NCBI GenBank assembly: GCA_022510405.1
Contig: JAFLTP010000014.1
Coordinates: 1 to 64,000, forward strand
Source of the DNA: Muribaculaceae bacterium
GTDB taxonomy: Bacteria > Bacteroidota > Bacteroidia > Bacteroidales > Muribaculaceae
Length of the DNA stretch: 64,000 nt
Direction of reading: 5' to 3'
The notes beneath the pieces are model-generated. The model was not told the DNA's origin. It did not search any database and saw only the letters and a list, made by a program, of their open reading frames with translations. The position numbers and the translations under genes are program-made. The first letter of the stretch is position 1; each line of letters opens with the position of its first letter. Positions 5,792 through 20,765 of the stretch are shown piece after piece.

Positions 5792-5849
5792 ATTTTAGTA
5801 ACAAAATTGTCACTAACAAAATTGTTACTAATTTTAGTAACAAAATTGT
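5792..5849 (+). repeat. repeat array A upstream of the 377-aa ATPase
   Basis: The 19-mer ATTTTAGTAACAAAATTGT occurs at 5792-5810 and identically at 5831-5849. A shorter copy, CTAACAAAATTGT, lies between at 5813-5825. The middle copy sits in a perfect dyad TAACAA-AA-TTGTTA (5814-5827). The last copy covers the -33 region of the predicted ATPase promoter, so these look like operator sites. The rest of 5481-5895 holds the leader and promoter of the divergent gene. Confidence 0.75.
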
Positions 5850-5876
5850 ATATATAACTTTATTTACATAATTTTG
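5846..5876 (+). promoter_or_regulatory. promoter of the 377-aa ATPase gene
   Basis: TTG (5846-5848), a 20-bp spacer, then TAATTTTG (5869-5876), a match to TAnnTTTG. The start codon is 19 bp further at 5896. The -33 element lies inside the last copy of repeat array A. Confidence 0.6.
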
Positions 5877-5895
5877 GAAAAAACTTTTAACCAAA

Positions 5896-7029
5896 ATGCA
5901 TCAATACCCATTCGTATACGGCCGTTCGGTAAAAAACCAATATTTCACCGATCGTGAACAGGAGTCAAGATGGCTGGAAAACAATTTCAGGAATGGTGTT
6001 AACACCATCCTAATATCACCCAGAAGAATCGGAAAAACTTCTCTTGTAGAAAAAGTCTGTAGGAAATTTTCCGACTCACCTGATATCAAGATAGTTTTGT
6101 TAGACATATTCAAATGTAGGAATGAAGAGGAATTTTTCCGCACTTTTTCCGATAACGTATTACGTCAAACATCATCTAAAATGGAGGAATGGGTAGAGAA
6201 TGCTAAATCATTCCTGTCCAGACTTAGTCCGAAGGTGAACATCAGTGCCGACCCCACTTCTCCCATTTCTTTAGGGTTCGAACTTTCCTCCACCGGGCAA
6301 TTTGCCGAAGACATCCTTTCCTTGCCCCTAAAAATAGCTGCCAAAAAAAAATGCCGCTTGATCATTTGTATTGATGAGTTTCAACAGATCGGGGAGTTTA
6401 AAGACAGTATGGCTTTTCAAAAACTTTTGAGAACGTACTGGCAACATCAGGACGACGTAACTTATTGCCTTTTTGGAAGTAAGAAACATATGATGAACGA
6501 GTTATTTGAAAAACCAAGCAACCCGTTCTATAAATTCGGTGAAGTAATCAATCTGAAAAAAATTCCTGAAGAATATTGGATTGAATTTATTAAGGACAGA
6601 TTCCACAAAACAGGGAAAGAAATCCAAACCAATACAGCAAAAGAAATCTGTAGGCTCACAGAGAATTATTCCTGCTATGTGCAACAGCTTTCTTTGATCT
6701 TATGGGATAATTTCGACCCTAAAAACCAACTGGAGGCCCTTAAATTTGCTTTCGATAAACTACTTGAACATTGCGGAGTGTTATTCGAACAACAGACCAT
6801 AAACCTCTCAGCATATCAAATGAATTTCCTCAGAGCCCTTGTGGATGGGCACTCTGAAAACTTGTCCACCTCCGCTATCATTTCAAAATATGAATTGGGA
6901 AGCACATCTAACATCCAGAGAATAAAGACAGCCCTGATAAAAAAAGAATTGATCGATATCGAAGAACGCCGCTATGTGATTACAGATCCTATACTCAAAG
7001 CTTGGCTCCGGCGGCTTTTCTATCAATAA
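5896..7029 (+). CDS. archaeal-ATPase-type AAA+ protein with C-terminal winged helix
   Basis: A 377-aa ATP-binding protein of the archaeal ATPase (PF01637-like) class. Walker A is SPRRIGKTSL (about residues 40-49). Walker B is LIICIDEFQQ (about 155-164). Sensor-like FGSKKHMM follows, then a lid. The C-terminal region from about 310 (LRALVDG ... STSAIISKYELGS ... RYVITDPILKAWLR) looks like a winged-helix DNA-binding domain. No signal peptide or membrane segment is present. It is a single-gene unit on the + strand between two - strand operons, ended by a shared terminator, with repeat array A on its promoter. The biological role of this abundant family is unknown. Autoregulation through the winged helix and the array is an inference. 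Confidence 0.85.
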   Translation: MHQYPFVYGRSVKNQYFTDREQESRWLENNFRNGVNTILISPRRIGKTSLVEKVCRKFSDSPDIKIVLLDIFKCRNEEEFFRTFSDNVLRQTSSKMEEWVENAKSFLSRLSPKVNISADPTSPISLGFELSSTGQFAEDILSLPLKIAAKKKCRLIICIDEFQQIGEFKDSMAFQKLLRTYWQHQDDVTYCLFGSKKHMMNELFEKPSNPFYKFGEVINLKKIPEEYWIEFIKDRFHKTGKEIQTNTAKEICRLTENYSCYVQQLSLILWDNFDPKNQLEALKFAFDKLLEHCGVLFEQQTINLSAYQMNFLRALVDGHSENLSTSAIISKYELGSTSNIQRIKTALIKKELIDIEERRYVITDPILKAWLRRLFYQ

Positions 7030-7034
7030 AGAAA

Positions 7035-7064
7035 GGGATTGGAAACCGGGCGGTTCCAATCCCC
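7035..7064. terminator. bidirectional terminator between convergent genes
   Basis: GGGATTGGAA (7035-7044) pairs with TTCCAATCCC (7054-7063), extended inward by CC/GG with a bulged A. It lies between the ATPase stop (7029) and the stop of the SusF-like gene (7103) and probably serves both. Confidence 0.75.
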
Positions 7065-7102
7065 TATCGTTTTCAAGAAATTATTCCTATAGAATCAAAT
7101 TT

Positions 7103-8710
7103 TTATTCTGCAGGAGTTAGAAGCAACGTATAAGTGCTTTCACCTGTGAGAGTGAGGATGGCGTCTCCTTTGAAATCCACCGACATCTTCAGGTTACCTC
7201 CATTATAGACCATTTCATAGGGAGTTCCCGGTACCACATTTGCGTCCGCACCTGCTCCATAGTTGATTGTACCCCAATTGGTGTCAGCAACCTTGAATTC
7301 TGTGCCCTTTGAAATAGAGACATTCTTGCATACCCATACATTCTCCTGATCGGTAGTGATGAACTGATAGGAAGACAAAGCTGCCCAATTTTCATCCCAA
7401 CCGCCGCGGAGATATATGTCAACATGCTCATATTCCTCTTCCGCTTCGGCAATTGTGATGGTGAATTCATTGAGGTCGACAGTGATTTCGATCTCTCCGC
7501 CTTCCCATCCCGGAATCTGCCAGTTGCCCTGTGCTGAAGATGCATTCACGCCTTCCTGGAATACCGGACCTGAGTAAGAACCGTCAGCCAAAGATATGTC
7601 GAGGGTTGAGCCATCGTTGTTGGAACCGATAGAACCTATGTCCCAGCTGCCGAGAACGTGGTAGAAACGGAATATGAACTGATCTGCACCTACATAGGTT
7701 TCCCCTTTATAGATGTTGCTTCCGGGCTCTGTCTCCTCGAGAAGGATATCACTCTTTTCAACGTCCCAACCTTCAGGAGCGCCTACAAGATAGATTCCGT
7801 CGCTAAGGTCATAGATATCATAAGTCATATCTTCGATATTGACCTTGATCTCATATTTGCCCTCTCCGGCAACCTTACCGGCTTTGGCATCCTTGTCTGT
7901 GAGAATACCTGAAGGAGCTTCGTCGCCGTCAACAACGGTTCCGAGAACACCGTCCCAAGCATTTTCAGCTTCTGCTGTTCCGAGTTCAACTGCGCTTTCA
8001 GGAGCTACTTTCCACCAGTTGTCGCCACTCTGATACCATACATAAGTGAATATAGGATCATCGTATTTGCTTGCATCAGGATTATGATACATCTCATATT
8101 TCAATGAATTTGCATTCAAATCCCATGTAGTGGCGTTACTCAAGAAATAGTAATTGTCCTCAATAACGAGACCCTGGTCGATACATTGTTCTTCCAAAGA
8201 ACCAGCAGCCACATAATAATTGGAGTCTCCGAGTCTATAATTGCTACCGTTAACGTTCACATAAGCAGGCATTCGGTAGAAAATAGTCTTCACTGCCGGG
8301 TTTCTGCCCAAAAGATAGAGGTGAGCGTCGTTCCAGTCACCGGCTTTCACATAAAGGTTTTTAGCTGTCTCTTCGGTATTGCCATATTCAGGATAGAGCA
8401 TATAGGTGGAACCGAAATCCTGAGAAGATGACAACACAAGCTGGATACTGAGGTCTGCGCCGGCGGGTAGGTTGATGGCCTCATCGAGCGTGAGCACCTG
8501 CACCAAAGCGTCAGGATCATTTGCATAGTCATTGAGGTTGAAAACAGCTGCTGTTGCCAACGGTCCGGCCTCAACCACGATGATATCGTCGATGGTAAGC
8601 ACATCTTCCTGAGGATTGTGCTGTGGGATTGACTCCGGTATATCGGTCTCGTCGCAAGCTGCGAAGACTAATCCGAGAGCCCCCAAAAGAAATAAATTAT
8701 ATTTTTTCAT
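7103..8710 (-). CDS. SusF/SusE-family outer-membrane glycan-binding lipoprotein
   Basis: A 535-aa lipoprotein with lipobox VFAAC (Cys19) followed by DE, a Bacteroidetes surface-export type start. An N-terminal SusE-type beta domain (about 35-135) is followed by two or more starch-binding-like modules: one around GIYLVGAPEGWDV (about 305-400) and one around IYLRGGWDENWAALSSYQF (about 430-535). The last module resembles the C-terminus of the adjacent 282-aa SusE-like protein (TEFKVAD..W..IN.GAG, then NVV.PG), so the two share a paralogous domain. It is the last gene of the susC-D-E-F-like operon. It should bind polysaccharide at the cell surface beside the SusCD transporter; the glycan is not identifiable from sequence. 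Confidence 0.87.
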   Translation of the reverse strand: MKKYNLFLLGALGLVFAACDETDIPESIPQHNPQEDVLTIDDIIVVEAGPLATAAVFNLNDYANDPDALVQVLTLDEAINLPAGADLSIQLVLSSSQDFGSTYMLYPEYGNTEETAKNLYVKAGDWNDAHLYLLGRNPAVKTIFYRMPAYVNVNGSNYRLGDSNYYVAAGSLEEQCIDQGLVIEDNYYFLSNATTWDLNANSLKYEMYHNPDASKYDDPIFTYVWYQSGDNWWKVAPESAVELGTAEAENAWDGVLGTVVDGDEAPSGILTDKDAKAGKVAGEGKYEIKVNIEDMTYDIYDLSDGIYLVGAPEGWDVEKSDILLEETEPGSNIYKGETYVGADQFIFRFYHVLGSWDIGSIGSNNDGSTLDISLADGSYSGPVFQEGVNASSAQGNWQIPGWEGGEIEITVDLNEFTITIAEAEEEYEHVDIYLRGGWDENWAALSSYQFITTDQENVWVCKNVSISKGTEFKVADTNWGTINYGAGADANVVPGTPYEMVYNGGNLKMSVDFKGDAILTLTGESTYTLLLTPAE

Positions 8711-8737
8711 GTAATCTTTTCTTATGAGTTATAAAAT

Positions 8738-9586
8738 TTACTCTTGATCGAGAATGAGAGTATAATTACCCTTATCGAGATAGAGGTAAGCCTTGCCGGT
8801 GAAATCAACCTTGATTGTCAAGTTGCCAGGATTGTCACCACCCTGGAGTGCATAAGCCTCGCCTGGAGTTACAACATTGTCATCTCCGGCTCCTAAGTTA
8901 ATAGGAGCCCATTCACTATCAGCTACCTTGAATTCAGTTCCGGCAGGAATGGTTATGGTATTTGTCTCCCAACTGTTTTCTTCTTCTCCTGTCATAAACT
9001 GGAATTCAGGCACGGCACCCCAACCATCTACCATTCCGCCACGCAAATAAAGGTTGGCCGGCTGACCTGCCACCCAAATAGCGAGGTAGTTGGCGGAGAC
9101 ATTCTTGAAAGAAACCACATTAGAATAATATTGGGTGTTCTCCTGGCTCTGCTGTATATAAGTGTAAAGACGCATATACAGTGTCTGATATGGAAGAGGA
9201 AGATCTTGGTCATTCTTCACATTGCTCAGATATTCGAGCGCTGCAGCAACGTCACCGTTGATAGGATTGATTTCGGCACAATCGTAGAAGTCCTGGTTGA
9301 TTTCACGATAGTTTGCGAAATCTTCTGTCAAAGAGCATTGCACCCTATAAGTAGCCACAGCTGCGAAACCATAATATGGCTGGGAAGCAGTCAAGTGGAA
9401 AGTACCTGTCGAATTGTCGCTTGTCAGCATTATTGTCTGTTCACCCAACACCGGTTCATTCAGGAATTCAGCTTTAACAATTCCTTCGTGGCCTTGGAGC
9501 ACAGGATTCTTGTCCCAAGTTTCCTCACAACTTGAGAGACCGAGGGCTATAGAAACAATGCCAAGTGCATAAAAAATATTTTTCAT
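8738..9586 (-). CDS. SusE-like outer-membrane lipoprotein
   Basis: A 282-aa lipoprotein counted from the ATG at 9586; an upstream TTG at 9601 is possible but would put five extra residues before the signal peptide. The lipobox is GLSSC (Cys20) followed by EE. The N-terminal half is the SusE domain (KNPVLQGHEGIVKAEFL ... MLTSDNS ... YYGFAAVATYRVQCSL). The C-terminal about 105 residues are a carbohydrate-binding module homologous to the end of the next gene's product (NLYLRGGMVDGWGAVPEFQF). It lies 27 bp upstream of the SusF-like gene, and a hairpin separates it from susD. It is predicted to present glycan to the SusCD complex on the cell surface. Confidence 0.88.
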   Translation of the reverse strand: MKNIFYALGIVSIALGLSSCEETWDKNPVLQGHEGIVKAEFLNEPVLGEQTIMLTSDNSTGTFHLTASQPYYGFAAVATYRVQCSLTEDFANYREINQDFYDCAEINPINGDVAAALEYLSNVKNDQDLPLPYQTLYMRLYTYIQQSQENTQYYSNVVSFKNVSANYLAIWVAGQPANLYLRGGMVDGWGAVPEFQFMTGEEENSWETNTITIPAGTEFKVADSEWAPINLGAGDDNVVTPGEAYALQGGDNPGNLTIKVDFTGKAYLYLDKGNYTLILDQE

Positions 9587-9616
9587 ATCGTATATTTTCA
9601 AAATTTATGGATTTGG

Positions 9617-9641
9617 TTCCCGGCTCTTAACAAGCCGGGAA
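9617..9641 (-). terminator. intercistronic hairpin between susD and susE
   Basis: TTCCCGGCT (9617-9625) pairs perfectly with AGCCGGGAA (9633-9641) around the loop CTTAACA. On the - strand no T-run follows, so it is more likely an RNA-processing or partial-attenuation hairpin that sets the ratio of SusCD to SusEF than a full terminator. Confidence 0.6.
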
Positions 9642-9649
9642 TTTTATTC

Positions 9650-11344
9650 TTAATAACCTTCGTTCTGTGTAAAGTCAGGCTGAGCCGCAAGGACTGCCAA
9701 TGGTATCGGATAAATGTTATTACGTTCTGCAATACGAGTGCCTTCCATGTTATCCAAATTACCCTTAATCTGCCATGTGATTTGATTAGCACCGGCAAAA
9801 TATCCATTTCTCACGAGGTCGTTTCTGCGCCAGGATTCCATATAAAGTTCGCGAGAACGTTCGTTCATAATATTCCCAATAGTGAGTTGTCCGCTTGTAA
9901 TGTCAGGACTACCGGCTCTTTCCCTAATCAAGTTAACATAATTCAAGGCTGTGGTAGCATCGCCGCCGCCACCTTGCAGATAACATTCTGCCCACATGAG
10001 GTAAATGTCGGCCAATCGGATAATGGGTTGAGCGGCTGAAGACCAATCAGCAGCATTTGCAATGGTTGTTTGCATATCCCATCCGCCATCCCATGCTGCG
10101 TTTGGATAACGGTTGGTAAATTTAATAGGAGCATTACCTCCACAAGATACCCACTCACCTGTAAATCCAATGAATGTGTCTGAATAATCTTCAGCGACCC
10201 ATGAATCATTTGCATCTTCACCTGCGGGATAAACATCAGGACCACCTTTCATCCAAAGATCATCCCTAATGTCATTGTCAAGGCCATAGAATTTTTGAGC
10301 CATCTGAAGTTTAGCTCTGATACAACCCCATTGAGCGGTGGAGCCATAATTTTGAATTGGAATATAATGAGTGTTGGCAATAGGTGTCACTACTAAGAAA
10401 GTTGAACCGCCATAACTTTGGGTATAAGTCTTGTCATACCATATACCGAACAGGATTTCATCTTCTCCCGAACGGCTGCCTCCTTGCATATATTGTCCAT
10501 TTTCGATACAGAAAAGGTAGAGATAATCATTTGCAAGTCCTGAATTTTTAAAACCGCCTCCTTGATGACGAGAAATAAGGTTAGAGCAACGTTGTTGACA
10601 TTTTGCCCAATATTCCTTACTTCCAGTCCATACTTCACCATTAAGATACAGTTTGGCAAGAAGAGCTTCTGCTCCGTCTTTACCTACCCGGCCTAATACT
10701 GGTTTTTCGTTTAGATTTGAATTATCAACTATATCGACCAATTCACTTTCGAGCCAATCGAAGAGTTGTTGACGAGTGTATTGTTTTGGCTCTTCACCCA
10801 CTTCAGCCTCTTCAGTGATGAAAGAAGATTTCCCGAAAAGGTCGAGCATATTGTAGTATGAATATGCACGAAGAGTTCTGGCTTCAGCTTTCATTTCTAA
10901 AGTTTCTTCACTGTTGTCGTCTTTAAAGTTGAAGAGGAATTGGTTGCATAAAGCGATATGTCCTACCAATCTATAATAAGTACCCTCAAGATACACGTTG
11001 TTGGCACCCCATGTGCAAGAAGTGATTTCACCAGCGGCGCCGCTCTGGTCGTTTGGCCAAATCCAGACCAACTCATCTGTACAGAATTCACCCAAAGTAA
11101 AAATCATACGAAGATAAGCTGACGTACCGGCATCTATACCACTTACGTAAGAAGACCCTGGACCCGAAATACCGCTACATGCTATACCTGTATAACACAT
11201 TGCCAGTGTGTTTTCCTTAAAATCGGGAGCATTCTCGTCCACAAGGTTTGGATCGTTGGGCTGCAGATCAAGGTCACCAACACAAGAAGTGAGAACGAAT
11301 CCCATAGCCAATGCTCCGATAACTAAATATTTCTTAATGTTCAT
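9650..11344 (-). CDS. SusD/RagB family nutrient-binding outer-membrane lipoprotein
   Basis: A 564-aa lipoprotein with lipobox VLTSC (Cys21). It has the SusD/RagB architecture: an N-terminal SusD-like region with TPR-type helices (LRAYSYYNMLDLFGKSSF at about 155-172) and a C-terminal RagB region with WAECYLQGGG (about 470) and NLIRERAGSPDI. The motif NERSRELYMESWRRNDLVRNG (given here in pieces: NERSRELYME, WRRNDLVR) is typical. The protein forms the lid of the SusC channel and captures glycan at the surface. It lies 34 bp downstream of susC in the same operon. Length is normal for the family. Confidence 0.95.
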   Translation of the reverse strand: MNIKKYLVIGALAMGFVLTSCVGDLDLQPNDPNLVDENAPDFKENTLAMCYTGIACSGISGPGSSYVSGIDAGTSAYLRMIFTLGEFCTDELVWIWPNDQSGAAGEITSCTWGANNVYLEGTYYRLVGHIALCNQFLFNFKDDNSEETLEMKAEARTLRAYSYYNMLDLFGKSSFITEEAEVGEEPKQYTRQQLFDWLESELVDIVDNSNLNEKPVLGRVGKDGAEALLAKLYLNGEVWTGSKEYWAKCQQRCSNLISRHQGGGFKNSGLANDYLYLFCIENGQYMQGGSRSGEDEILFGIWYDKTYTQSYGGSTFLVVTPIANTHYIPIQNYGSTAQWGCIRAKLQMAQKFYGLDNDIRDDLWMKGGPDVYPAGEDANDSWVAEDYSDTFIGFTGEWVSCGGNAPIKFTNRYPNAAWDGGWDMQTTIANAADWSSAAQPIIRLADIYLMWAECYLQGGGGDATTALNYVNLIRERAGSPDITSGQLTIGNIMNERSRELYMESWRRNDLVRNGYFAGANQITWQIKGNLDNMEGTRIAERNNIYPIPLAVLAAQPDFTQNEGY

Positions 11345-11378
11345 TTTCTTTCTTTATTTATTAATTCAACCTCATAAA

Positions 11379-14300
11379 TTAGAAGCCAAGTACAAGACCA
11401 AGGGTCCATGTTGTGGCACGCGGATAGATGTTACCGTCGACACCGCTGAACACTTCAGGATCAAGACCTTTATATTTGGTGATTACAAACGGGTTTTGTA
11501 CACCGCAGAATACTCTGAGGTTTGCATTGTAATATTTACCGAGGTGATCGAGAGTATAACCCAATGTGATGTTGTCGCAACGTAAGAATGAAGCGTTTCT
11601 CAACCAATAGTCAGATGCGTTTGTATTCGCCGTGAAATAATAATCTGACTTAAATACATTTGAAAGCTGGTTGTTACGAGCAATACCATCGATTGTGGCG
11701 CCACCACGAAGAGATGAGGCATAAACATAGTTTCCTATAGATGAACGGAGGGAGAATCCAAGATCCCATTGTTTCCAACGGAAGTTGGAACCGAATGTCA
11801 TTGTTACCTTAGGATCCTTTGAATGTTCCACAACCAAGTCATGGGTATCAATAATACCGTCTGAATTCTGGTCAACATACACACCTTGGATCGGTGCTCC
11901 GTTTTCATCATACACCTGTTGGTAGAGATAGAAAGAATAAGCGGGATAACCCTCTCTCTGGATCTGGCAGTTACCACCGGTACCACCGAAACCACCACCT
12001 ACATAGAATTCATTACCATCAAGATTAGTAATTTCATTGTGGTTCCATCCAATGTTATAACTTAATGTCCAAACGAAATTGTCGGTTACGATCGGTTTAG
12101 CCTGGATGTTGAATTCAAGACCATAGTTTTCCATGTCACCGATGTTCTGCGGCAAGTAGTTAACTGTTGAGGATCCTGCTGGAACCGGCACTGTGGAAAG
12201 AAGGTCACGAGTCTTACGAAGATACCATTCAATGCTACCGCTGATACGGTTGTTCATGAAACCATAATCCAAACCTACGTTCCAAGTAGTAGTGGTTTCC
12301 CATTTCAAATCAGGATTGAATCCGTCGGGGAAATAAGGTATATACCATCCGCCCTGTCCATTAGTGTAGTATGATCCCGGTTGTGATGAAGTATAGGTGG
12401 GAATATAATTATAATAAGAACCTACAGCCTGTTGACCGGTTTCACCCCAACCGAGACGGAGTTTCAAATCTGAGAGCCATCCTGACGCGGGATTTAGGAA
12501 TGCTTCTTCGTTGATTCTCCAACCGAGAGCCACAGCGGGGAAGAGACCCCAGCGGTTGTCTTTTGAGAATCGTGATGTAGCATCACCACGAAGGGTTACA
12601 GTGAATAAATAGCGGTTGAGCAAAGTGTAGTTCACACGACCGAAGAATGAAAGCAACTGGAGGTGGTTTTTCCAATGGTAGTTGCCGTTCTTATCCATCG
12701 GGTCTTTCTCAAATACCTGATCTGCTGCTGTGTCAGGAGTATAATTCAAATTAAAACCACCGTTAGGATTCACGGTTGCAGGATTGATACCTGGAGTGGT
12801 TGAAACACCGGGATTTGATGATGCGCCATAATTCCAACCGTTGGCCGCCTCACGGTTCCAAGTATAACCGAGTGTAGCGTCGATCAATTGGTCGCATTTC
12901 TCTATTTCTTTACGATAGTTGAGATAGAATTCCAGAAGTGTGTTGCTGCGGAATGACTTGTCTTGTTCTTTGTAACCACCACCATAACCATTATGGTTCT
13001 TATATGCCATGTGAGAGTTGGCAGCCACTTCATACACATTGTCTGATGAAGTTACGTCATAACCCAAGTTAAGGTTTGCGTGAAGTTCGGGGAGGAAATG
13101 GAATGAGTAATCCAATTGGAGGTTTCCATTTGAACGCCATACATTTGAATAGTTTGTAGTCTGTTCGATTGTAGCAACAGGGTTGTAGGTTGCATTAGCC
13201 TCCAAATTGGCTTGACCGTCAGAAATTGCAAATGGTTCGTTATATCCGTTGAAAAGATAATGGAACGCGTCTGCAGCTGTTCCTCCGGTTATCCTGTATT
13301 GTTCAAGTTGAGCGGGTGTAAACATAACACCTATGGTAGGATTGTAGGAAACAGCCTGACCGATAGCATCTGTAGCAGCCCAAGTATTCTTCACATAGTA
13401 ACCTTTGGCGTTTGCATTAACTGACAAATGGTCGTTGAAGAACTTGGGAGTCAAGTTGAAACCGAAAGTGGCACGGTTCATTGTTGATTTCTTCATGATA
13501 CCATTGTTGTTGGTAAAAGAAGCGGTGACACGATACGGAAGCAACCCTGCAGTACCTGACAAAGAAAGAGTGTAGTCAGAACTGAAAGTTGTGCGGTAAA
13601 TCTGGTCTTGCCAGTCAGTGTCTTGGTCACCCAGCATCTGGGTTGCATTAGGAGCATGTTCAGCCACGAAATTTCTAAATTCACTTGCACTCAACACTTC
13701 TTGTTTCTTGCGTGCATAGTCTACATAGAAATTGGCTGAGAAAGTAACTTTAGGTCTACCTGCTGTACCTTTCTTAGTAGTAATGATGATCACACCGTTT
13801 GATGCACGAGAACCATAGATGGCGGTTGCGGAAGCATCCTTAAGGATGGTCATGCTTTCGATTGATTCCGGGTTGATCATTGCCAAAGGTGATCCGAGAC
13901 CTGTAGGAGTATCGTTACTCAAAGGCACTCCATCGAGCACGATAAGAGGGTCGTTGGAAGCGGAAAGTGAAGCACCACCACGGATACGGATATCGGCTGA
14001 ACCTGCAGGACCTCCGGAGGTAGTTACTACAACGCCCGGGGTTTGACCCACGAGCATATCCTGTACTGAAGTTGCGAGACCGGCTTCAATTTCATCCGGT
14101 TTTACAACTGCCACAGAACCTGTGGAGTCGGATTTCTTAACAGAACCATAACCGATCACCACTGTTTCAGCGAGAAGCTGAGCGTTCTGCTGCATAGTGA
14201 CCTTAATCTCAGTCCTGTTGTTTACGGGAACTTCAATTGGATCGTATCCCACATAACTTACAACGAGAGTACCGTTGGGGTCTACATTCAATGTGAAGTT

Positions 14301-14495
14301 ACCATCGATGTCGGTGGCGGTACCGTTGGTTGTACCTTTTTCCATTACGGTTGCACCGATCAGGGGCTCGCCCAGGTCATCATCCACGTAGCCATGGACA
14401 GTGATTTTCTGCGCGAAGCCGGGAAGCGCCAGGCCCAATAGCAATGCTATTGTCAACACAAGCTTCCTGTTCAGTTGAAAACAGATGTTCTTCAT
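11379..14495 (-). CDS. SusC/RagA family TonB-linked outer-membrane transporter
   Basis: A 1038-aa TonB-dependent transporter. A signal peptide (about 1-28, ending PGFAQ) is followed by a carboxypeptidase-regulatory-like domain (about 30-108, YVDDDLGEPLIGATVMEKGT). Next comes the plug with the TonB-box region ETVVIGYGSVKKSDSTG and the SusC signature GASLSASNDPLIVLDGVPL (about 173-191). A 22-strand barrel follows and ends in the terminal Phe needed for BAM insertion (LVLGF). It is the first gene of the susC-susD-susE-susF-like operon. The substrate is unknown: no glycoside hydrolase, hybrid two-component regulator or ECF sigma/anti-sigma pair lies next to it in this window. The repertoire suggests starch-like or other alpha-glucan import, by analogy only. 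Confidence 0.95.
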   Translation of the reverse strand: MKNICFQLNRKLVLTIALLLGLALPGFAQKITVHGYVDDDLGEPLIGATVMEKGTTNGTATDIDGNFTLNVDPNGTLVVSYVGYDPIEVPVNNRTEIKVTMQQNAQLLAETVVIGYGSVKKSDSTGSVAVVKPDEIEAGLATSVQDMLVGQTPGVVVTTSGGPAGSADIRIRGGASLSASNDPLIVLDGVPLSNDTPTGLGSPLAMINPESIESMTILKDASATAIYGSRASNGVIIITTKKGTAGRPKVTFSANFYVDYARKKQEVLSASEFRNFVAEHAPNATQMLGDQDTDWQDQIYRTTFSSDYTLSLSGTAGLLPYRVTASFTNNNGIMKKSTMNRATFGFNLTPKFFNDHLSVNANAKGYYVKNTWAATDAIGQAVSYNPTIGVMFTPAQLEQYRITGGTAADAFHYLFNGYNEPFAISDGQANLEANATYNPVATIEQTTNYSNVWRSNGNLQLDYSFHFLPELHANLNLGYDVTSSDNVYEVAANSHMAYKNHNGYGGGYKEQDKSFRSNTLLEFYLNYRKEIEKCDQLIDATLGYTWNREAANGWNYGASSNPGVSTTPGINPATVNPNGGFNLNYTPDTAADQVFEKDPMDKNGNYHWKNHLQLLSFFGRVNYTLLNRYLFTVTLRGDATSRFSKDNRWGLFPAVALGWRINEEAFLNPASGWLSDLKLRLGWGETGQQAVGSYYNYIPTYTSSQPGSYYTNGQGGWYIPYFPDGFNPDLKWETTTTWNVGLDYGFMNNRISGSIEWYLRKTRDLLSTVPVPAGSSTVNYLPQNIGDMENYGLEFNIQAKPIVTDNFVWTLSYNIGWNHNEITNLDGNEFYVGGGFGGTGGNCQIQREGYPAYSFYLYQQVYDENGAPIQGVYVDQNSDGIIDTHDLVVEHSKDPKVTMTFGSNFRWKQWDLGFSLRSSIGNYVYASSLRGGATIDGIARNNQLSNVFKSDYYFTANTNASDYWLRNASFLRCDNITLGYTLDHLGKYYNANLRVFCGVQNPFVITKYKGLDPEVFSGVDGNIYPRATTWTLGLVLGF

Positions 14496-14880
14496 GCAAG
14501 AAAAATTTAGTTGAATATATTTGGTTAGATTTTATCCGGTTTTTTACATGTTTATTCAAGTTTTTCACGACTTTAAATAAGTATGGCAAAGACAACGTCA
14601 AGCTTTATGCCCGTGCCTCGTGAGTTTTCATTGGTGTTTTATCCAAAATTCATAGCAAAAATAAACTTAAATTCGCATTATGCTATACCAATAGCATGTA
14701 TTAACATTGTTAATTAAACTATTTAACTTATAAAACTTGTTCCCTTTCACTCACTTCCAAAATAATTAAAGGAATGTTGGATTTAACAGCTGAACAATTG
14801 TTTTCACAAAGTGGGTTTAGGAAAAATCCCTCCCATTAACATCTAAAGTATTTTTTGAGACCTCTCAATCGATAAAACCT
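14496..14880 (-). promoter_or_regulatory. susC upstream region with possible promoter and operator
   Basis: A 385-bp gap. On the - strand TATTTTTG (14663-14656) fits the -7 consensus, about 160 bp before the susC ATG; no clear -33 is seen. ATGCTAT (14680-14686) and ATAGCAT (14691-14697) form a perfect 7-bp dyad around ACCA, just upstream of the -7 box, a plausible operator. The remainder (14700-14880) is AT-rich with nothing recognisable. The gap also separates susC from the end of the ATPase gene transcribed in the same direction. Confidence 0.4.
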
Positions 14881-16233
14881 TCATAGCAATGAGGCCATAT
14901 AAACCGGCAGGTATATGGTGGACCCTTCTTTATGAACATCTTTGGTGGTCAAAACATAGCTTTCCTCTATTCGTGAAGAATATTTTTCTTTAAATAAAAC
15001 CAAAGATTTGTGTGCTTTATACCCTGATGATTTCACTTCTATGGGACATATCTTTTCTCCATGAGATATCAAGAAGTCAATCTCATAATTTATTTCTTTT
15101 CCTTCATTCCCCATCTTCATCCTAAAAATATTATAATATAACGCATGGCCTGATGACCTCAACAATTGAGCCACAACATTCTCATAGACATAACCCAAGT
15201 TAGCCGCCAATTTATCGGTCAACAGTTTTTGATAAAGATGATTATCTGTAAAATCCTTATCCCAAAAACACATAGTGACAAATAACCCGGTGTCACAAAT
15301 ATACATCTTGAAAATATCTCTATCTGCATTTAAAGACATTCCTACATTAGGATCCTGACATAAATAGCAAAAATCAACAGTGAACGACTCATCCAATTCC
15401 GTGAAGATTTCTGTCAGTCTGGAATATCGGGAATTTGGAATTACCTCACCTATGCGAAACCGGGATAAATCACGTGATAATTGACCCGGTATTGATTTGA
15501 AAATTTCAGATGCCTTACCTGTAGAATCTATCCTCTTAAAATCATTGATATATAAAGTGATGATATCTCTCTTTATTTTGTCAACCTCCGAGAATTCCCC
15601 TTTTTCCAAATATTCAGCCACAGACTGAGGCATTCCACCCACCAACATATATAAGCGGAATAGTTTCATTAAATCGCGATTCACTTTCTCTCCAAGTGGC
15701 TTTACCTTCTCATAGGAATATTGGATTAATTGATAGGTAGCATCTTTCCCAATGGCCCATAAGAATTCCTCAAAGTCCATAGGAAACATAGAAATACATC
15801 TCTCTTCACTTGGAATTAAAATATCCTTTATATTTTTTTTGATGGAAATAAGTGAACCGGTCTCTATATAATGGAATCTACCATCTTTAACAAGCAGTTT
15901 GATAGCTTGACGGGCCTTAGGACAAAATTGTACCTCATCAAATATTATGACACTCTCACCGGGAATTAACGCCTTACCTGTAAGCGCTTGTAAGGATACG
16001 AAAAAATATTGCAAGTCAGTGAGATCATTAAACAATGATTTAATATTATCCGACACATAAGCAAAGTCGATGATTAAATATCGGGTATATTCCTTTTTTG
16101 CAAATTCCTCAACAATAGTGGATTTTCCTATACGTCTTGCCCCCTCAATCAATAGCGCGGTTTTCCCTCCACTTTCCTTTTTCCATTTAAGCAGTTTTGA
16201 ATATATTTTTCTTCTAAAAATGGGATATTCCAT
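14881..16233 (-). CDS. AAA_14/DUF4143 ATPase
   Basis: A 450-aa cytoplasmic protein. The AAA_14 ATPase module has Walker A EGARRIGKST (about residues 29-38) and Walker B ESVIIFDEVQF (about 92-102), then ETGSLISI (about 125-132) as sensor region. A helical/winged-helix linker follows (about 225-290). The DUF4143 C-terminus carries a PD-(D/E)XK-like nuclease core, with NYEIDFLISHG (about 385) and CPIEVKSSG (about 400). No membrane segment. It lies downstream of the related gene at 16466-17815 but is separated from it by repeat array B, which overlaps its promoter. The function of this family is not established; the nuclease reading comes from the E.D...EVK pattern. Confidence 0.87.
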   Translation of the reverse strand: MEYPIFRRKIYSKLLKWKKESGGKTALLIEGARRIGKSTIVEEFAKKEYTRYLIIDFAYVSDNIKSLFNDLTDLQYFFVSLQALTGKALIPGESVIIFDEVQFCPKARQAIKLLVKDGRFHYIETGSLISIKKNIKDILIPSEERCISMFPMDFEEFLWAIGKDATYQLIQYSYEKVKPLGEKVNRDLMKLFRLYMLVGGMPQSVAEYLEKGEFSEVDKIKRDIITLYINDFKRIDSTGKASEIFKSIPGQLSRDLSRFRIGEVIPNSRYSRLTEIFTELDESFTVDFCYLCQDPNVGMSLNADRDIFKMYICDTGLFVTMCFWDKDFTDNHLYQKLLTDKLAANLGYVYENVVAQLLRSSGHALYYNIFRMKMGNEGKEINYEIDFLISHGEKICPIEVKSSGYKAHKSLVLFKEKYSSRIEESYVLTTKDVHKEGSTIYLPVYMASLL

Positions 16234-16251
16234 ATTATTCTAATTTGCAGG

Positions 16252-16283
16252 CAAATATAAACAAAATGTCAAGAAATGACAAA
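16252..16283 (-). promoter_or_regulatory. promoter of the 450-aa ATPase gene
   Basis: On the - strand TTTG (16283-16280), 20 bp, then TATATTTG (16259-16252), a full consensus fit. The ATG is at 16233. The -33 element lies within the first unit of repeat array B. Confidence 0.72.
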
Positions 16284-16429
16284 TGTTTTAACCCCAAAAT
16301 GTACAAGAAGTGACAATTTTTAAAATATCAAAATGTACAAGAAGTGGCAATTTTTAAAATATCAAAATGTACAAGAAGTGACAATTTTTAAAATATCAAA
16401 ATGTACAAGAAATGACAAATGTTCTAACC
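16262..16429 (-). repeat. repeat array B: five tandem 33-34-bp units
   Basis: Five consecutive units start at 16262, 16295, 16329, 16363 and 16397 (lengths 33, 34, 34, 34, about 33). Each begins CAAAATGT on the + strand and continues ACAAGAAGTGACA in the middle three. The two outer units differ in the same way (AAATGACAAATGTT). Unit 1 contains the dyad TGTCA-AGAAA-TGACA (16267-16281). There are no spacers, so it is not CRISPR. The period is close to three helical turns, which would place all sites on one DNA face. Confidence 0.9.
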
Positions 16430-16465
16430 AATATTCGTTTTTTCTTAATTCATCCTTTAATGGCC

Positions 16466-17815
16466 TCAAAATGTCAAATCCTCCCTTATATTATCATTCC
16501 CCAAAAACATCACCATATAAACAGGTAGATACAACACTGTTCCCTCTTCCCTGATATCTCCCGAAACATTCAAGACCACTCCCTTCTTTATATGATAATC
16601 CTCAACATTCATAAGACGACATAAGGCCGAATGAACATAATAATCTTTCCCGGATTTTACCTCAACAGGAACTACACTTAAATCTGCGTAATCATCTACA
16701 AGGAAATCCACTTCCCCGTTCTTTTTATTGTCATAGTAAAATACTTTATGGCAATGATTTTCCAATTCCATAGCCACACAACATTCATATAAAGCTCCAA
16801 GATTTACACTCTCTTCATAATCAAGTATGGGTTTGATATTAGTGTGATACAAAATATTAGACAACAGCCCCACATCATTCAGATATAACTTAAAAAGATT
16901 CTTGTGCTCTGACTCCACAAGGGGGAAACGAGGATTGGAAACAGATTTAACTTCAATTGTGACTCCTGAATCAATCAGGTAATCAACTTCATCTTCATAA
17001 TCCTTACTTCTAACTCCTTTCTTATTCTCTATGTCTTTAAACACCAACCTCTTCTTTTGTTGTTGCAATAATGAAGGCAACTTCTCGTAAATCCTCATTA
17101 TTTTCAGCTTGTGATTTTCATCATATTTAGCAGCATCGTGCCGGTATAAATCGTGAATATCACTTTGGATTTCACGTACTTTCTTTATATTATGACTTTC
17201 CAAAAATTCATTCACAACATCCGGAAGACCTCCTGTGATCAAATATCTCCTAAACAGCGATAATATCCTTTCATGCAAAGCCAAATTGGGCGATTCCCGC
17301 TTTTCAAAACATTCCCATAAGTAAGAAATCACTTCGGGACCCACTTCGTTGGCAATTAAAAATTCCTCAAAATCCAACGGAAACATTCTTAATATCTTGA
17401 GCGAACCAACAGGTATAGAAACAGACCTCCTTAAAGTAACCCCCAAAAGTGATCCACTTGAAATATACCGATATCTTCCCTCTTGACGTAGAAATTTCAA
17501 CATTGTCATCAAATGAGGGTATTCTTGAATTTCATCTAAAAACACCAAAGTGTCAGACCATGTCTTCAATTTATTTCCCGCCAATGAGCTTAAAACAAGA
17601 TAAAATTCCTCTGTAGTCTTTACATTTTTAAAATATTGCTCTCCATTGCGATCGTCAGCAAGGTTTATCTCAATAAAATTTGGAAACAATTTTTCACCTA
17701 CATATCTTATTATATATGATTTGCCAACTTGTCTGGCACCTTCCACCAATAGAATCTTATCTGAATTAGATTCCAAATGATCCTTTATCTGCTGTGTTAT
17801 CTTCCTGTAAAGCAT
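16466..17815 (-). CDS. AAA_14/DUF4143 ATPase
   Basis: A 449-aa paralogue-like relative of the 450-aa ATPase downstream. Walker A is EGARQVGKSYI (about residues 25-35), Walker B SDTLVFLDEIQE (about 86-97), and the sensor segment is YISSGSLLGV (about 117-126). The DUF4143 tail has GEVDFLVDD (about 373-381) and VPVEVKSGK (about 388-396), the E.D...EVK nuclease-like pattern. The middle holds helical DNA-binding-like segments. No signal or membrane segment. It follows the DUF4956 gene in the same direction, separated only by repeat array C. The two adjacent ATPases share layout but their repeat arrays differ completely. The role is unknown. Confidence 0.87.
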   Translation of the reverse strand: MLYRKITQQIKDHLESNSDKILLVEGARQVGKSYIIRYVGEKLFPNFIEINLADDRNGEQYFKNVKTTEEFYLVLSSLAGNKLKTWSDTLVFLDEIQEYPHLMTMLKFLRQEGRYRYISSGSLLGVTLRRSVSIPVGSLKILRMFPLDFEEFLIANEVGPEVISYLWECFEKRESPNLALHERILSLFRRYLITGGLPDVVNEFLESHNIKKVREIQSDIHDLYRHDAAKYDENHKLKIMRIYEKLPSLLQQQKKRLVFKDIENKKGVRSKDYEDEVDYLIDSGVTIEVKSVSNPRFPLVESEHKNLFKLYLNDVGLLSNILYHTNIKPILDYEESVNLGALYECCVAMELENHCHKVFYYDNKKNGEVDFLVDDYADLSVVPVEVKSGKDYYVHSALCRLMNVEDYHIKKGVVLNVSGDIREEGTVLYLPVYMVMFLGNDNIREDLTF

Positions 17816-17826
17816 ATATTTATAAT

Positions 17827-17984
17827 CTCAAATTACACTTTTCCTATGAATTTCGACCCCTAAATATACACTTTTCCGATGAATTTTAACCCCTAAATAT
17901 ACACTTTTCCGATGAATTTCGACATCAAAAACTACATTTTTCCTATAATTTTAACTCTCAAATATACACTTTTCCTATAATTTC
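17827..17984 (-). repeat. repeat array C: five tandem 32-33-bp units
   Basis: Units begin at about 17827, 17858, 17891, 17924 and 17956. On the + strand the best unit reads CCCTAAATATACACTTTTCC followed by GATGAATTTCGAC. Copies 2 and 3 differ at only two positions (TTAAC versus TCGAC); the others are more diverged. The array fills the whole gap from 12 bp before the ATPase ATG (17815) to the stop codon of the DUF4956 gene (17985). On the - strand each unit contains TATATTT[A/G] or a variant, resembling a -7 promoter box. Confidence 0.9.
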
Positions 17985-18647
17985 CTATTTATCGGATTTG
18001 GGAAGCTTCAGGAGATGGTCGACACTGCTGGCTTCGTTGTAGCGGGTTTCGTAGTAGACTTTGAGCATCACTGTGTCTTGCAAAAAATTGATGGCTCCAA
18101 CCTCTACCTTTATAATTTTCAGACCCGTGCGATGCCTTAAATCTTCAAGGAGTTCGTGACGCTGATGGGGCTGGATGTTATCCACACGGTCATAAAGTAT
18201 AAGTTTGGAAGATACATGACGCCCTCCACGGAAACTTTCAACAACCCACACCGACAACACATAGATGATGTTGGTGGCAAAGATCTCTGCGTAACTGAGA
18301 TTCAGGGCAATGGCATTGATCACCGAAAGTGAGATAATAACGAACAGATAGGTCATTTCCCTCACCGGCACCGTCTCGGTTCTATACCGGATAATACCGA
18401 AGATGGCGAAAAGTCCCAAGGCCATGCCTACCTTGATTTTGACTCCTCCCAACAGATAGATCAGGAAAAAGATACTGATGGATATCAAAATAAAGGTGAA
18501 ATAATAATCGAGTCGCCTACTTTTCCTATAATAGAAAAACTGGATAAGGATAAAAACAAACACCATGTTGAGGATAAACCTGAAAATCATCAGGCTCAAA
18601 CTCGGCACATCCATCAACGGGGTTTCAAGAAATTCAAAGTCTTCCAT
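17985..18647 (-). CDS. DUF4956 integral membrane protein
   Basis: A 220-aa protein with about four to five membrane segments (roughly residues 18-38, 46-66, 70-84, 99-118 and 122-136), then a soluble C-terminal domain of about 85 residues. The segment GLFAIFGIIRYRTETVPVREMTYLF (GIIRYRTETVPVREMTY is the diagnostic core) identifies DUF4956. In other genomes the family often lies with a VTC-like polyphosphate polymerase domain gene or a CotH protein. Neither is present here, so the partner is missing or elsewhere. The molecular function is unknown. The gene is followed directly by repeat array C, and read-through into the next ATPase is possible. Confidence 0.85.
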   Translation of the reverse strand: MEDFEFLETPLMDVPSLSLMIFRFILNMVFVFILIQFFYYRKSRRLDYYFTFILISISIFFLIYLLGGVKIKVGMALGLFAIFGIIRYRTETVPVREMTYLFVIISLSVINAIALNLSYAEIFATNIIYVLSVWVVESFRGGRHVSSKLILYDRVDNIQPHQRHELLEDLRHRTGLKIIKVEVGAINFLQDTVMLKVYYETRYNEASSVDHLLKLPKSDK

Positions 18648-18670
18648 TGAAGAAAGGTTAAAGATAAAAT

Positions 18671-18835
18671 GGAAAGTTTAAAGTTTAAAGTGGAAAGTTT
18701 AAAGTAGAAGGTAGAAAGTGTAAAGTGTAAAGTAATTAGTTTAAAACTTAAAACTTAAAACTTACAACTTACAACTCATAACTTACAACTCATAACTTAC
18801 AACTCAAAACTTACAACTCACAACTAACAACTCTC
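18671..18835. repeat. heptad repeat array (two complementary halves)
   Basis: The left half (18671-18735) consists of units such as AAAGTTT, AAAGTGG and AAAGTGT. The right half (18740-18835) consists of AACTTAA, AACTTAC, AACTCAT, AACTCAA and AACTCAC in 7-bp steps. The halves are partly complementary, so a long imperfect hairpin is possible. Related 7-bp arrays occur at many other gaps in the window. Confidence 0.8.
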
Positions 18836-18839
18836 ACAC

Positions 18840-18870
18840 AAAAAAGGGGTCAATCAATCGATTGTACCCC
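18840..18870 (-). terminator. terminator of the PepSY-like gene
   Basis: GGGGT (18846-18850) pairs with ACCCC (18866-18870), and CAATC pairs with GATTG inside. On the - strand six Ts follow the stem. It lies 30 bp after the stop at 18901. Confidence 0.8.
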
Positions 18871-18900
18871 TCAAAGTTACAAAATTTCTTTAAATATCGC

Positions 18901-19356
18901 TTATTTCTTTACAACCTGTCCGTAGCTCTTGTCAAACTTGAGCTTCATACCGTCTGACAAAGTAACCTTGTATTGGTCTTTCTTAAACTTAATCGACTTA
19001 ACTGTTTCACCGGGATATTTGTCAGTGATAGTCTTACGAGCGATGTTCGGAAGAAGGTCGATGGATGCAGGAACACTTGACTTCTTTGCGTCTACCTGGT
19101 ACCAGTTTCCTGTAAGGTCGAACCACAATTTAGTGCCATTGTCAAGATTTACGCGATACCACATCGGTTCAGTTGTTGGCCTCATCATCTTTGCCCATGA
19201 TTTAGCAACCTTTGCTCCGGGATAGTAATCATTTAGGAAGGTCTGTACTTGAGCCGGCATCTTTTCAACTGGGCATTCTACTCTTTCTGCGTTTGCTGTT
19301 GCTGCTCCAAGGGCCACTACTAATGCAAGTGCCAATACTCTGAATAATTTTTTCAT
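18901..19356 (-). CDS. secreted PepSY-like (BLIP-related) protein
   Basis: A 151-aa exported protein with signal peptide 1-23 (ending TANA). It contains two copies of a PepSY-like fold. The first includes MPAQVQTFLNDYYPGAKVAK, then RVNLDNGTKLWFDLTGNWYQV. The second includes LLPNIARKTITDKYPGETVK, then KVTLSDGMKLKFDKSYGQVV. This is the pattern of Bacteroidetes PepSY-like proteins of the DUF2874/PF11396 class, annotated as beta-lactamase-inhibitor-like. It is small, periplasmic and basic; the ligand or target is unknown. It is a single-gene transcription unit with its own terminator, and a -7-like TAATTTTG lies on the - strand at 19414-19407. Confidence 0.85.
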   Translation of the reverse strand: MKKLFRVLALALVVALGAATANAERVECPVEKMPAQVQTFLNDYYPGAKVAKSWAKMMRPTTEPMWYRVNLDNGTKLWFDLTGNWYQVDAKKSSVPASIDLLPNIARKTITDKYPGETVKSIKFKKDQYKVTLSDGMKLKFDKSYGQVVKK

Positions 19357-19406
19357 AACCTTTAATTTTTTAATTGTTAGTTTTAATAGTTGTGTAAGAG
19401 TTAATA

Positions 19407-19414
19407 CAAAATTA
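19407..19414 (-). promoter_or_regulatory. -7 box for the PepSY-like gene
   Basis: On the - strand TAATTTTG fits TAnnTTTG, 51 bp before the ATG at 19356. No -33 element at standard spacing was found. Confidence 0.4.
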
Positions 19415-19491
19415 AAACGATATTAATTAAAAAAAGGTTCAATCACACATAGCCCGATTCCCAATTTTAACACAATTTTCACAATAGGCTT

Positions 19492-20676
19492 CTATTTAAA
19501 AAGAGAAGTAATCGGTATAGAAAAAAAATCTTCTGCCGACATCCCTCCCTCTCCAATAATCAAAGCTCTTTTAGGATTAAAGAGTTTTGAAAACTCATCT
19601 AATCCTTTGCTTGACTTTTCATTGTTGCTTTTAATTTCCAACGCTATAATATTTTCTTTTTTCTTCAAGATAAAATCAACTTCTAAATTTCTATCTCTCC
19701 AATAGTAGACTTCACATCTATGAATAAAAGCCTGTTGCACAATGTAAGCACCGATAGCAGATTCAAAAACATGTCCCCATACGCCTGGATTTAAAACAGC
19801 TTCTTCAAAAGATAAAGAAGAATAAATCTCCTTGAAGGAATTGTCATACACCTGGAATTTAGGGATAGAACCTTTAGAACGAGCTTTGTCACGGGAATAT
19901 TTTTGTAATCCGGTGACCAGACAGGCTTCTTGCAAAAGGTGAAGGTATTGGGATAAAGTAGTGGTATTACCCGCATCTTGCAGTTGTCCTATCATCTTGG
20001 TATATGAGAGAATATTTCCCGAATAGGCCGAAGCGAGTTCGAAGGTCTGTCTCAGTAAAGCAGGTTTGTTAATTTGAACATCGTTCAATATATCACGATT
20101 TATTGTGGCTTCAACAATAGCAGTAGTTATATAATCATCAAATCTCTCAGGATCTTTAATAAACGGAATTGCTCCCGGATAACCGCCATAAAATAAATAT
20201 TCTTTTAAAGAGATTCCGAAACACTCATGAATTTCACTGAATGACCATTGTGCCATTCTTATTTCTTCGAATCTTCCTGCCAGAGATTCGGAAAGACCTT
20301 TTTTTAACAGGATCCTGCTGCTACCTAAGAGCACCACTTTGATATTCCTGTCATGGAATGTATCCTCATCCCATAGTTTTTTTACGCATTCACTCCAATT
20401 ATCAATTTTTTGAATTTCATCAATCACAAGGATATATTCAGTTTGGTGTTGTTCAGCAAGAAGTCTTACGGTTTGCCAACATTGAACTATCCAATTGGAA
20501 TTATAGTCAGGAACATCGTCGGCCGCATAAAATTTGTAAGGAATTAAGATATCCTTCAATACTTGTTTAACAACAGTGGATTTACCAACTTGGCGAGGTC
20601 CCATTATAACTTGGATAAATCTTCGCGGTTCCTCAAGTCGTTGTTTAATCTTTTTATATACAGGAAGTTTATACAT
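19492..20676 (-). CDS. AAA_14/DUF4143 ATPase
   Basis: A 394-aa protein. Walker A is GPRQVGKSTVV (about residues 26-36). Walker B is YILVIDEIQKI (about 81-91). LLGSSRILLKKGLSESLAGR (about 115-134) is the typical sensor/arginine stretch of AAA_14. A winged-helix-like segment (YTKMIGQLQDAGNTTTLSQY, about 225-244) and DUF4143 follow. The nuclease-like core is NLEVDFILKK (about 330) then IIALEIKSNN (about 343-352). It is shorter than the other two DUF4143 ATPases and belongs to a different subgroup. The promoter is consensus and divergent from aroA; repeat array D lies in the leader. The role is unknown. Confidence 0.88.
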   Translation of the reverse strand: MYKLPVYKKIKQRLEEPRRFIQVIMGPRQVGKSTVVKQVLKDILIPYKFYAADDVPDYNSNWIVQCWQTVRLLAEQHQTEYILVIDEIQKIDNWSECVKKLWDEDTFHDRNIKVVLLGSSRILLKKGLSESLAGRFEEIRMAQWSFSEIHECFGISLKEYLFYGGYPGAIPFIKDPERFDDYITTAIVEATINRDILNDVQINKPALLRQTFELASAYSGNILSYTKMIGQLQDAGNTTTLSQYLHLLQEACLVTGLQKYSRDKARSKGSIPKFQVYDNSFKEIYSSLSFEEAVLNPGVWGHVFESAIGAYIVQQAFIHRCEVYYWRDRNLEVDFILKKKENIIALEIKSNNEKSSKGLDEFSKLFNPKRALIIGEGGMSAEDFFSIPITSLFK

Positions 20677-20683
20677 ATCATAA

Positions 20684-20726
20684 CAATTTACTCAGTGAAC
20701 TGAGCAATTTTACTCACTGCACTGAT
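20684..20726 (-). repeat. repeat array D: two tandem 21-22-bp units
   Basis: Unit 1 (20684-20704) and unit 2 (20705-20726) both read CAATTT(T)ACTCA.TG.ACTGA on the + strand. Unit 1 contains the dyad CTCAGT-GA-ACTGAG (20691-20704); unit 2 has a degenerate form. They lie between the predicted transcription start (about 20729) and the ATPase ATG (20676), where a bound protein would block transcription. Confidence 0.8.
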
Positions 20727-20734
20727 TAATCGTT

Positions 20735-20765
20735 CAAAGGTAATCAAAATAATAACTTTATCAAA
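20735..20765 (-). promoter_or_regulatory. consensus promoter of the 394-aa ATPase gene
   Basis: On the - strand TTTG (20765-20762), exactly 19 bp, then TACCTTTG (20742-20735), a full fit to the Bacteroidetes consensus. The predicted start near 20729 puts array D in the early leader. Confidence 0.75.

Follow-up and report, generated by a model that had tools for sequence, protein, structure and literature searches.

The window analysed here is a 64,000-nucleotide stretch of a Muribaculaceae bacterium genome (contig JAFLTP010000014.1, positions 1 to 64,000, assembly GCA_022510405.1). It carries four genes for AAA+ ATPases, three of them of the DUF4143 type, and each is preceded by a short direct-repeat array (Table 1). 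Genes are named below by their first coordinate and, unless stated otherwise, residues are numbered as in the 16466 protein. The arrangement had been put forward in the original prediction, made from the letters of the sequence, and all four arrays could be read directly. Judging from the sequence comparisons reported below, each protein probably binds the array before its own gene and controls its own promoter.

Table 1. Features of the window discussed in the text (TRF, Tandem Repeats Finder; aa, amino acids)
Feature	Position	Strand	Basis
Array 1: three TAACAAAATTGT copies, steps of 15 and 24 bp	5792..5849	+	direct reading, TRF; 15-bp arrays in relatives
Candidate -7 box TAATTTTG (TAnnTTTG), just 3' of array 1	5869..5876	+	direct reading
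ATPase_2 (PF01637) gene, 377 aa	5896..7029	+	profile search; no DUF4143 match
AAA_14-DUF4143 ATPase, 450 aa, PDC-S01 match	14881..16233	-	Pfam and PADLOC profiles
Array 2: TTGTCACTTCTTGTACATTTT, 34-bp period, 4.6 copies	16262..16418	-	TRF score 237, direct reading
AAA_14-DUF4143 ATPase, 449 aa, PDC-S01 match	16466..17815	-	Pfam and PADLOC profiles; AlphaFold2 mean pLDDT 91
Codon of Lys364, four residues before nuclease Glu368; tends to follow the repeat 5' half	16724..16726	-	codon checked
Predicted winged helix of the 16466 protein, residues 239-292, with 270-282 as recognition helix	16940..17101	-	AlphaFold2
Codon of Arg269, best predictor of the repeat 3' half	17009..17011	-	covariation; codon checked
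Array 3: TTCATMGGAAAAGTGTATATTT, 33-bp period, five copies (TRF 4.8)	17829..17984	-	TRF score 184, direct reading
AAA_14-DUF4143 ATPase, 394 aa, PDC-S01 match	19492..20676	-	Pfam and PADLOC profiles
Array 4: a pair of imperfect palindromes (CTCAGTTCACTGAGTAAA type) at a distance of 22 bp	20687..20727	-	direct reading; 22-bp arrays in relatives

The three DUF4143 proteins score above the cut-off with PF13173 and PF13635 and are matched over their whole length by the PADLOC profile PDC-S01 (E values 2.5e-99, 2.4e-173 and 3.6e-176); NCBIfam profiles gave no match to them, and a sequence search for relatives of solved structure returned a single match, Midasin. The 5896 protein is not a member of this family, as it exceeds the cut-off with PF01637 and reaches only 7e-4 with PDC-S01. 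In the class of about 450 aa, the Walker residues G31, K32, D94 and E95 are kept in 135 of 135 proteins. The nuclease-like tail noticed earlier in the DUF4143 proteins is likewise conserved there as an E-x-D...E-x-K motif (E368, E385 and K387 each in 134/135, D370 in 129/135 with Glu in the other 6). At an E value of 0.001 the genome of the window contains 13 DUF4143, 21 AAA_14 and 11 ATPase_2 matches, in lists that overlap and include some matches below the family cut-offs. PDC-S01 has been described as a single-gene phage-defence candidate, an ATPase fused to a PD-(D/E)XK domain. It is reported to rank fourth among the defence entries of prokaryotes, within a set of candidates most of which await validation (PMC12988326), and to be the individual locus met most often in a set of rumen genomes (PMC13356809). 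The passages of PMC12988326 that concern it mention neither upstream arrays nor DNA recognition. No description of the arrays was found in searches of an open-access library, although the paper that defines the PDC candidates (reference 15 of PMC12988326) may contain more.

The four arrays are not equally distinct from background. When upstream self-match scores were compared with those of 196 control open reading frames (ORFs) of the same genome, the score of gene 14881 (140) was reached by no control and that of gene 16466 (81) by 6, so that arrays 2 and 3 are convincing without further support. The scores of genes 5896 (30.5) and 19492 (20.6) were reached by 19 and 34 controls respectively, which places arrays 1 and 4, taken alone, within chance; TRF gave no row for array 4. 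Both appear credible through relatives that share their 15-bp and 22/44-bp offsets. Across the parts of this genome that were sampled, 12 of 20 ATPases of these families scored at least as high as array 1, as against 19 of the 196 control ORFs, and by our own reading 10 of these 19 controls are heptad simple repeats. The earlier claim that no other gene of the window has upstream repeats does not hold to the letter, though the heptads, found before other genes as well, are of a different kind. Such repeats (ACTTACA and TTTAAAG types), unlike the ATPase arrays, occupy intergenic positions 18651-18833, 25987-26094, 35013-35051, 39798-40019, 58283-58327 and 63714-63827. Elsewhere in this genome (locus L014), a control gene of 287 aa (C23:94247-95110, + strand) is preceded by a strong 22-bp array, GGAAAATCCCAAGTACAACTTTGGAA, and an ATPase_2-profile gene of 486 aa (C23:86986-88446, - strand) by a 52-bp array whose score, 216, is the highest among the ATPases examined in this genome.

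Repeat period, core and placement in relatives

The period of the repeat depends on the subfamily of the protein: it is 32-34 bp or a multiple with proteins of about 450 aa, 23 bp with those of about 427 aa, 22 bp with the 394-aa proteins and 15 bp with those of the ATPase_2 type. Part of the matches in 41 genomes of the genus and order of the window were sampled, and the upstream DNA sufficed for scoring in 127 of 136 ATPases. A repeat was called at a score of at least 20, the best offset being searched freely, and DUF4143-type profile matches were binned by length. The loci were drawn from matches listed by score (80 of 83 chosen, with open frames of about 400-530 aa, plus 30 loci); duplicate loci (L001-L008, L213, L224-L227, L243) and L290-L296 are outside the counts. 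A repeat was present in 38 of 40 proteins of 436-470 aa, 35 of these at 32-34 or 66 bp, and in 18 of 20 of 424-435 aa, 13 of these at 23 bp. Proteins of 390-405 aa have repeats in 12 of 17 cases with mixed periods, 22 bp being the commonest (4); the figures for 406-423 aa and for more than 470 aa are 7/18 and 4/9. Only 48 of 409 control genes scored as high, with scattered offsets among which 21 and 14 bp, the heptad multiples, were commonest.

Arrays with a period that depends on the subfamily recur beyond the order, in several phyla, as expected of the widespread module that had been proposed. A scan of named genomes for the class of about 450 aa considered the best 80 of 571 relatives, mostly metagenome-assembled genomes, from Bacteroidales, Clostridia, Bifidobacterium, Collinsella, Fibrobacter, Erysipelotrichaceae and others. 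Enough upstream DNA was available for 78, of which 68 reached a score of 20; the offset was 32-34 or 64-67 bp in 63 of these 68. The corresponding control values are 20 of 170 and 6. In the sister class of about 427 aa, 57 new proteins (less than 92% identical to earlier ones, in a whole set of 73) gave offsets of 23 bp in 47 cases, 46 bp in 2 and 69 bp in 1, with 5 weak and 2 other. For the ATPase_2 type the best offset is 15 bp in 20 of 30 loci at any score (18 at a score of at least 18), and for the 394-aa type 22 or 44 bp in 25 of 30 (13 at a score of at least 18), the window gene being included in both counts.

The repeats look selected, with conserved cores and diverged spacers. In 84 arrays of the 33-bp class, which precedes the proteins of about 450 aa, neighbouring copies agree at 96-99% in the A-run of the core and at 87-97% in the next four positions, and agreement drops to 38-45% at the spacer positions most distant from the core. 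Orientation is constrained too: where the core is clear (53 genes), the array regions contain 153 core copies, all of them forward, and 282 kb of far-upstream, gene and downstream DNA of the same genes contain 4. The upstream unit of locus L181, GGAATTATTCC, is palindromic and unlike the usual GAAAA-core unit of this class. The four arrays of the window had been called unrelated. This is true among the four window genes; within a subfamily, however, the core (GAAAA or GCCAA) is often common to the arrays of different genomes and the other part of the repeat differs. The arrays had also been called private, and the two motifs searched, those of arrays 2 and 3, are confined to their own arrays: a search of the 3.0-Mb assembly (92% complete) that allowed 3 mismatches gave 4 matches for each and none for the reversed-pattern control. 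A shared regulon was rejected because no second site for either motif was found in the assembly at this threshold.

The arrays lie where transcription is expected to start. TAnnTTTG is the consensus of the Bacteroidetes promoter box. Such boxes fall at repeat phase +12 in 25 of 84 genes, with 30 boxes at this phase and 5 at the next commonest. The last copy begins a median of 43 bases (33-bp class) or 74 bases (23-bp class) before the start codon, with a 5-95% range of about 10-100 bp. Boxes at a single repeat phase, together with copies this close to the start codon, suggest that occupied arrays should block or gate transcription.

Residues that follow the repeat

In the commonest repeat of the 33-bp class one half, TTGGAAAA, is shared, and the other is variable (GTGTA, CGGACA, CGGCA, GTGGA, GTCCC, CCGAT and others). 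The GAAAA motif allowed 84 of the 107 training arrays to be aligned; 7 of the 107 fit the reversed motif better. When overall divergence was removed, residue 269 was the protein column most closely associated with the variable half in the training set (partial r 0.48, next column 0.25) and with repeat positions 11-12 in training and held-out proteins combined (partial r 0.58, next column 0.22). Arg at this position mostly accompanies TGT, Lys GG, Gln GTCC or TGAC and Asn CCGAT, while Thr and Ala sometimes accompany GTTG or GTCA. In training, TGT was present with 39 of 51 Arg269 proteins and with 0 of 33 others, and GG with 17 of 19 Lys269 proteins and 14 of 65 others. The held-out set came from 71 loci of further genomes with 74 protein matches, reduced to 56 by removing 5 proteins at least 90% identical to a training protein and 13 at least 90% identical to each other; 1 of the 56 had too little upstream DNA, 4 had no array and 51 had one. 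There TGT accompanies 21 of 27 Arg269 proteins and 1 of 24 others (Fisher p 7e-8, relatedness ignored). In 63 usable pairs out of 64 phylogenetically independent ones, drawn from both sets, residue 269 ranked first of 335 columns (p 8e-5, about 0.03 corrected). Among Lys269 proteins, a post hoc inspection found Ser271 with CGGACA in 8 of 8 cases, and Glu or Asp271 after Phe270 with GCA in 9 of 11.

The AlphaFold2 model of the 16466 protein (pLDDT, the predicted local distance difference test, 91; pTM, the predicted template modelling score, 0.91) has helices at 239-250, 260-263 and 270-282 and a strand at 286-292 after the ATPase domain, an order of elements that we read as a winged helix. Residue 269 lies directly before helix 270-282, taken here as the recognition helix. 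The 23-bp class, whose repeat comprises GCCAA, a variable middle and AAAA (63 of 72 arrays alignable), points to nearly the same place. Column 254 of its alignment has the strongest association with the variable middle (r 0.36, next 0.20) and, in a test on 31 independent pairs, is the leading one of 250 columns (p 3e-5); it is the residue preceding the Thr of the recognition helix, and in a profile alignment of the two classes it falls opposite residue 268, one off 269 and beside a gap. Lys254 accompanies GG in 10 of 11 cases against 6 of 52 for other residues, and Asp254 CCGAA in 14 of 16 against 1 of 47, rules that were read from the same data, with no held-out set. Thus the co-divergence of arrays and winged-helix residues envisaged in the original prediction was recovered in both classes, and for residue 269 also in held-out proteins.

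A second contact may involve the nuclease-like domain. In both classes the 5' half of the repeat tends to vary with the residue four positions ahead of the first nuclease Glu, numbered 364 in the 33-bp class and 346 in the 23-bp class. Among 33-bp-class proteins, the 89 with Lys364 have repeats with GGAA in 75 cases and TTGAA in 1 (13 unclassed), and 14 of the 16 with Arg364 have TTGAA, namely 11 by pattern and three (L013, L136 and L242) that the pattern had classed as GGAA, yet that read GGATTGAAAA. In the 23-bp class, repeats start with GCC in 32 of 37 Lys346 proteins and with CAC or CTC in 8 of 11 Ser346 proteins (r 0.58). For the 5' half in the 33-bp class, windows of columns point to residues 116-148 and single columns to R110 and K364; K364 was preferred, after the data had been seen, because the position four residues before the nuclease Glu led the Mantel test of the 23-bp class.

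Several observations weigh against binding of each protein to its own array, or limit the comparisons above. The code is not fully accounted for by residue 269: TGT is missing with Arg269 in 12 of 51 training proteins and in 6 of 27 held-out ones, several of these having CGCA instead, and the Lys269 rule is weaker in the held-out set (GG in 6/7 against 13/44 for others, p 0.008) than in training. The 23 training arrays that scored 0 or less on the GAAAA motif were dropped, array 2 of the window among them, and sequence identity between held-out and training proteins reaches 88% in some cases. The pair tests of Lys364 and Lys346 contained 3 residue-discordant pairs (p 0.05) and neither residue was in the top six columns; with so few independent switches and other columns ahead, the contact with the 5' half is a lead rather than a result. 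The regularity of the steps (67 of 32 bp, 180 of 33 bp and 12 of 34 bp in the 33-bp class, with one single step in 82 of 97 arrays of at least three copies; 191 of 195 at 23 bp in the 23-bp class) was obtained with a finder that permitted only 32-34 or 22-24 bp and their doubles, so that the freely searched offsets are the fairer test of period. Finally, a general lack of repeats in orthologues, which would have spoken against the original prediction, is not seen in the subfamilies described above, but it is seen in DUF4143 proteins of less than 390 aa: of 21 such proteins, among them six fragments, only 5 have one. Arrays therefore seem dispensable for some relatives.

Possible roles of the arrays

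A mechanism can be outlined from these comparisons. The protein would combine an AAA+ ATPase and a winged helix with, in the three DUF4143 proteins, a PD-(D/E)XK nuclease-like domain. Each repeat would act as a two-part address whose 3' half is read by the winged helix via the residue before the recognition helix and whose 5' half may be read by a loop beside the nuclease active site. The fixed period would put the copies in register so that neighbouring molecules could pack side by side in an ordered complex, as for Orc1/Cdc6 or iteron-binding proteins. With copies placed over the probable promoter and the start of the gene, autorepression and a self-limiting dose should follow first; cooperativity and autorepression at the arrays are both inferred. 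Paralogues with different addresses would not be expected to cross-talk, and the array may serve as a platform that holds the ATPase-nuclease ready. A role of the nuclease centred on the array is possible, though we consider it somewhat doubtful.

Binding might do no more than set the level of the protein, as with regulators of defence and toxin-antitoxin genes, the effector work being done elsewhere; such plain autorepression has close to an even chance, if slightly less. The promoter-like boxes at a single repeat phase and the short distance of the last copy from the start codon agree with it, and RptR uses direct repeats in this way in a defence island (PMC12255303). However, a period kept over up to 7 or 8 copies exceeds the needs of simple repression, and the tendency of the residue four positions before the nuclease Glu to follow the repeat hints at a position of the effector domain itself on the array. 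In another reading the array would mark self, the ATPase-nuclease acting on, or being released by, incoming or replicating DNA according to array occupancy, with phages, plasmids or rival elements that carry or remove the address as the trigger. Both this role and this trigger are rather unlikely in our estimation. The PDC-S01 matches, the near-invariant ATPase and nuclease motifs and the private addresses of two paralogues speak for them, as does a viral contig (IMGVR_UViG_3300004457_000197, locus L429) with four address-like copies of GTCGGAAAAGTGTAATC at 13116-13239, spaced by 27, 32 and 49, at the edge of the 13-kb segment examined, which has no ATPase match. These copies could be a decoy or due to chance. 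On the other side, only 3 viral contigs match the single address pattern scanned, and in the two others (L427 and L428) core and spacer are duplicated together, one of them lying near a contig end; moreover, the family belongs to a set of candidates most of which are reported as awaiting validation (PMC12988326).

It is improbable that the genes form a mobile unit in which the arrays are ends or target sites and the protein a helper of transposition or recombination. The patchy distribution of DUF4143 matches (1 to 22 among genomes of the same genus), a listing of COG1373 in a table of transferred genes (PMC10782964) and the presence of MuB among the Foldseek matches are compatible with it, but no core copy lies downstream of 51 of 53 genes within the flank examined. 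Transposon ends are not supported, as only 2 of the 53 have a downstream core copy within this flank (one of them two copies) and none is inverted. Chance or slippage, that is, tandem duplication in AT-rich leaders, has next to no probability. Heptad simple repeats are indeed common in this genome, yet the period depends on the subfamily whereas that of controls scatters, cores are kept while spacers have diverged, and residues and bases covary in held-out proteins. These three features refute chance for whole classes; single two-copy arrays could be due to it.

Binding by the encoded protein at its own promoter, the preferred reading, has partial parallels. By structure the nearest mechanism, though only weakly similar, is that of Orc1/Cdc6 at origin repeats. 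The top Foldseek match of the 16466 model is 2qby, a Cdc6/Orc1 pair on origin DNA, with a weak whole-chain template modelling score of 0.27-0.33. Archaeal Orc1/Cdc6 proteins consist of an AAA+ domain followed by a DNA-reading winged helix, the same domain order as in this model. These initiators bind origin repeats, have no nuclease domain and serve few origins per genome, unlike the many private addresses suggested here, and the presence of at least 29 DUF4143 matches in one genome argues against an origin role. Plasmid iterons and partition centromeres are direct repeats of fixed period, private to their element, that lie next to a gene whose product reads them. The arrays share this arrangement, with binding as the proposed part; iterons and centromeres, however, serve plasmid replication or segregation, while the proteins considered here are numerous paralogues of bacterial genomes that mostly carry a nuclease domain. 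The RptR system of a type I restriction-modification island also places a defence-linked operon under the control of a protein bound to promoter direct repeats. RptR differs in being a small separate repressor of a 6-bp palindrome conserved across genomes, whereas here the ATPase-nuclease would be its own reader and the address varies (PMC12255303).

We propose tentatively, at somewhat less than even probability, that this family of defence candidates consists of DNA-addressed ATPase-nucleases. Each gene would have its own address array, recognized by two residues in two domains, the winged helix and the nuclease loop, according to a simple code predictable from the protein sequence; addresses would have diversified, allowing paralogues without cross-talk, and the array would be a platform for assembly and control of the nuclease. 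A cognate site that is partly predictable from one or two residues gives a handle on the PDC-S01 family, namely a candidate binding site and a likely promoter switch, and the rule linking residue and repeat would tell paralogues apart. Should the recognition code be borne out in vitro, the family would supply natural and varied protein-DNA pairs for the study of specificity. Private-array recognition would thus make the role of a common family of unproven function testable.

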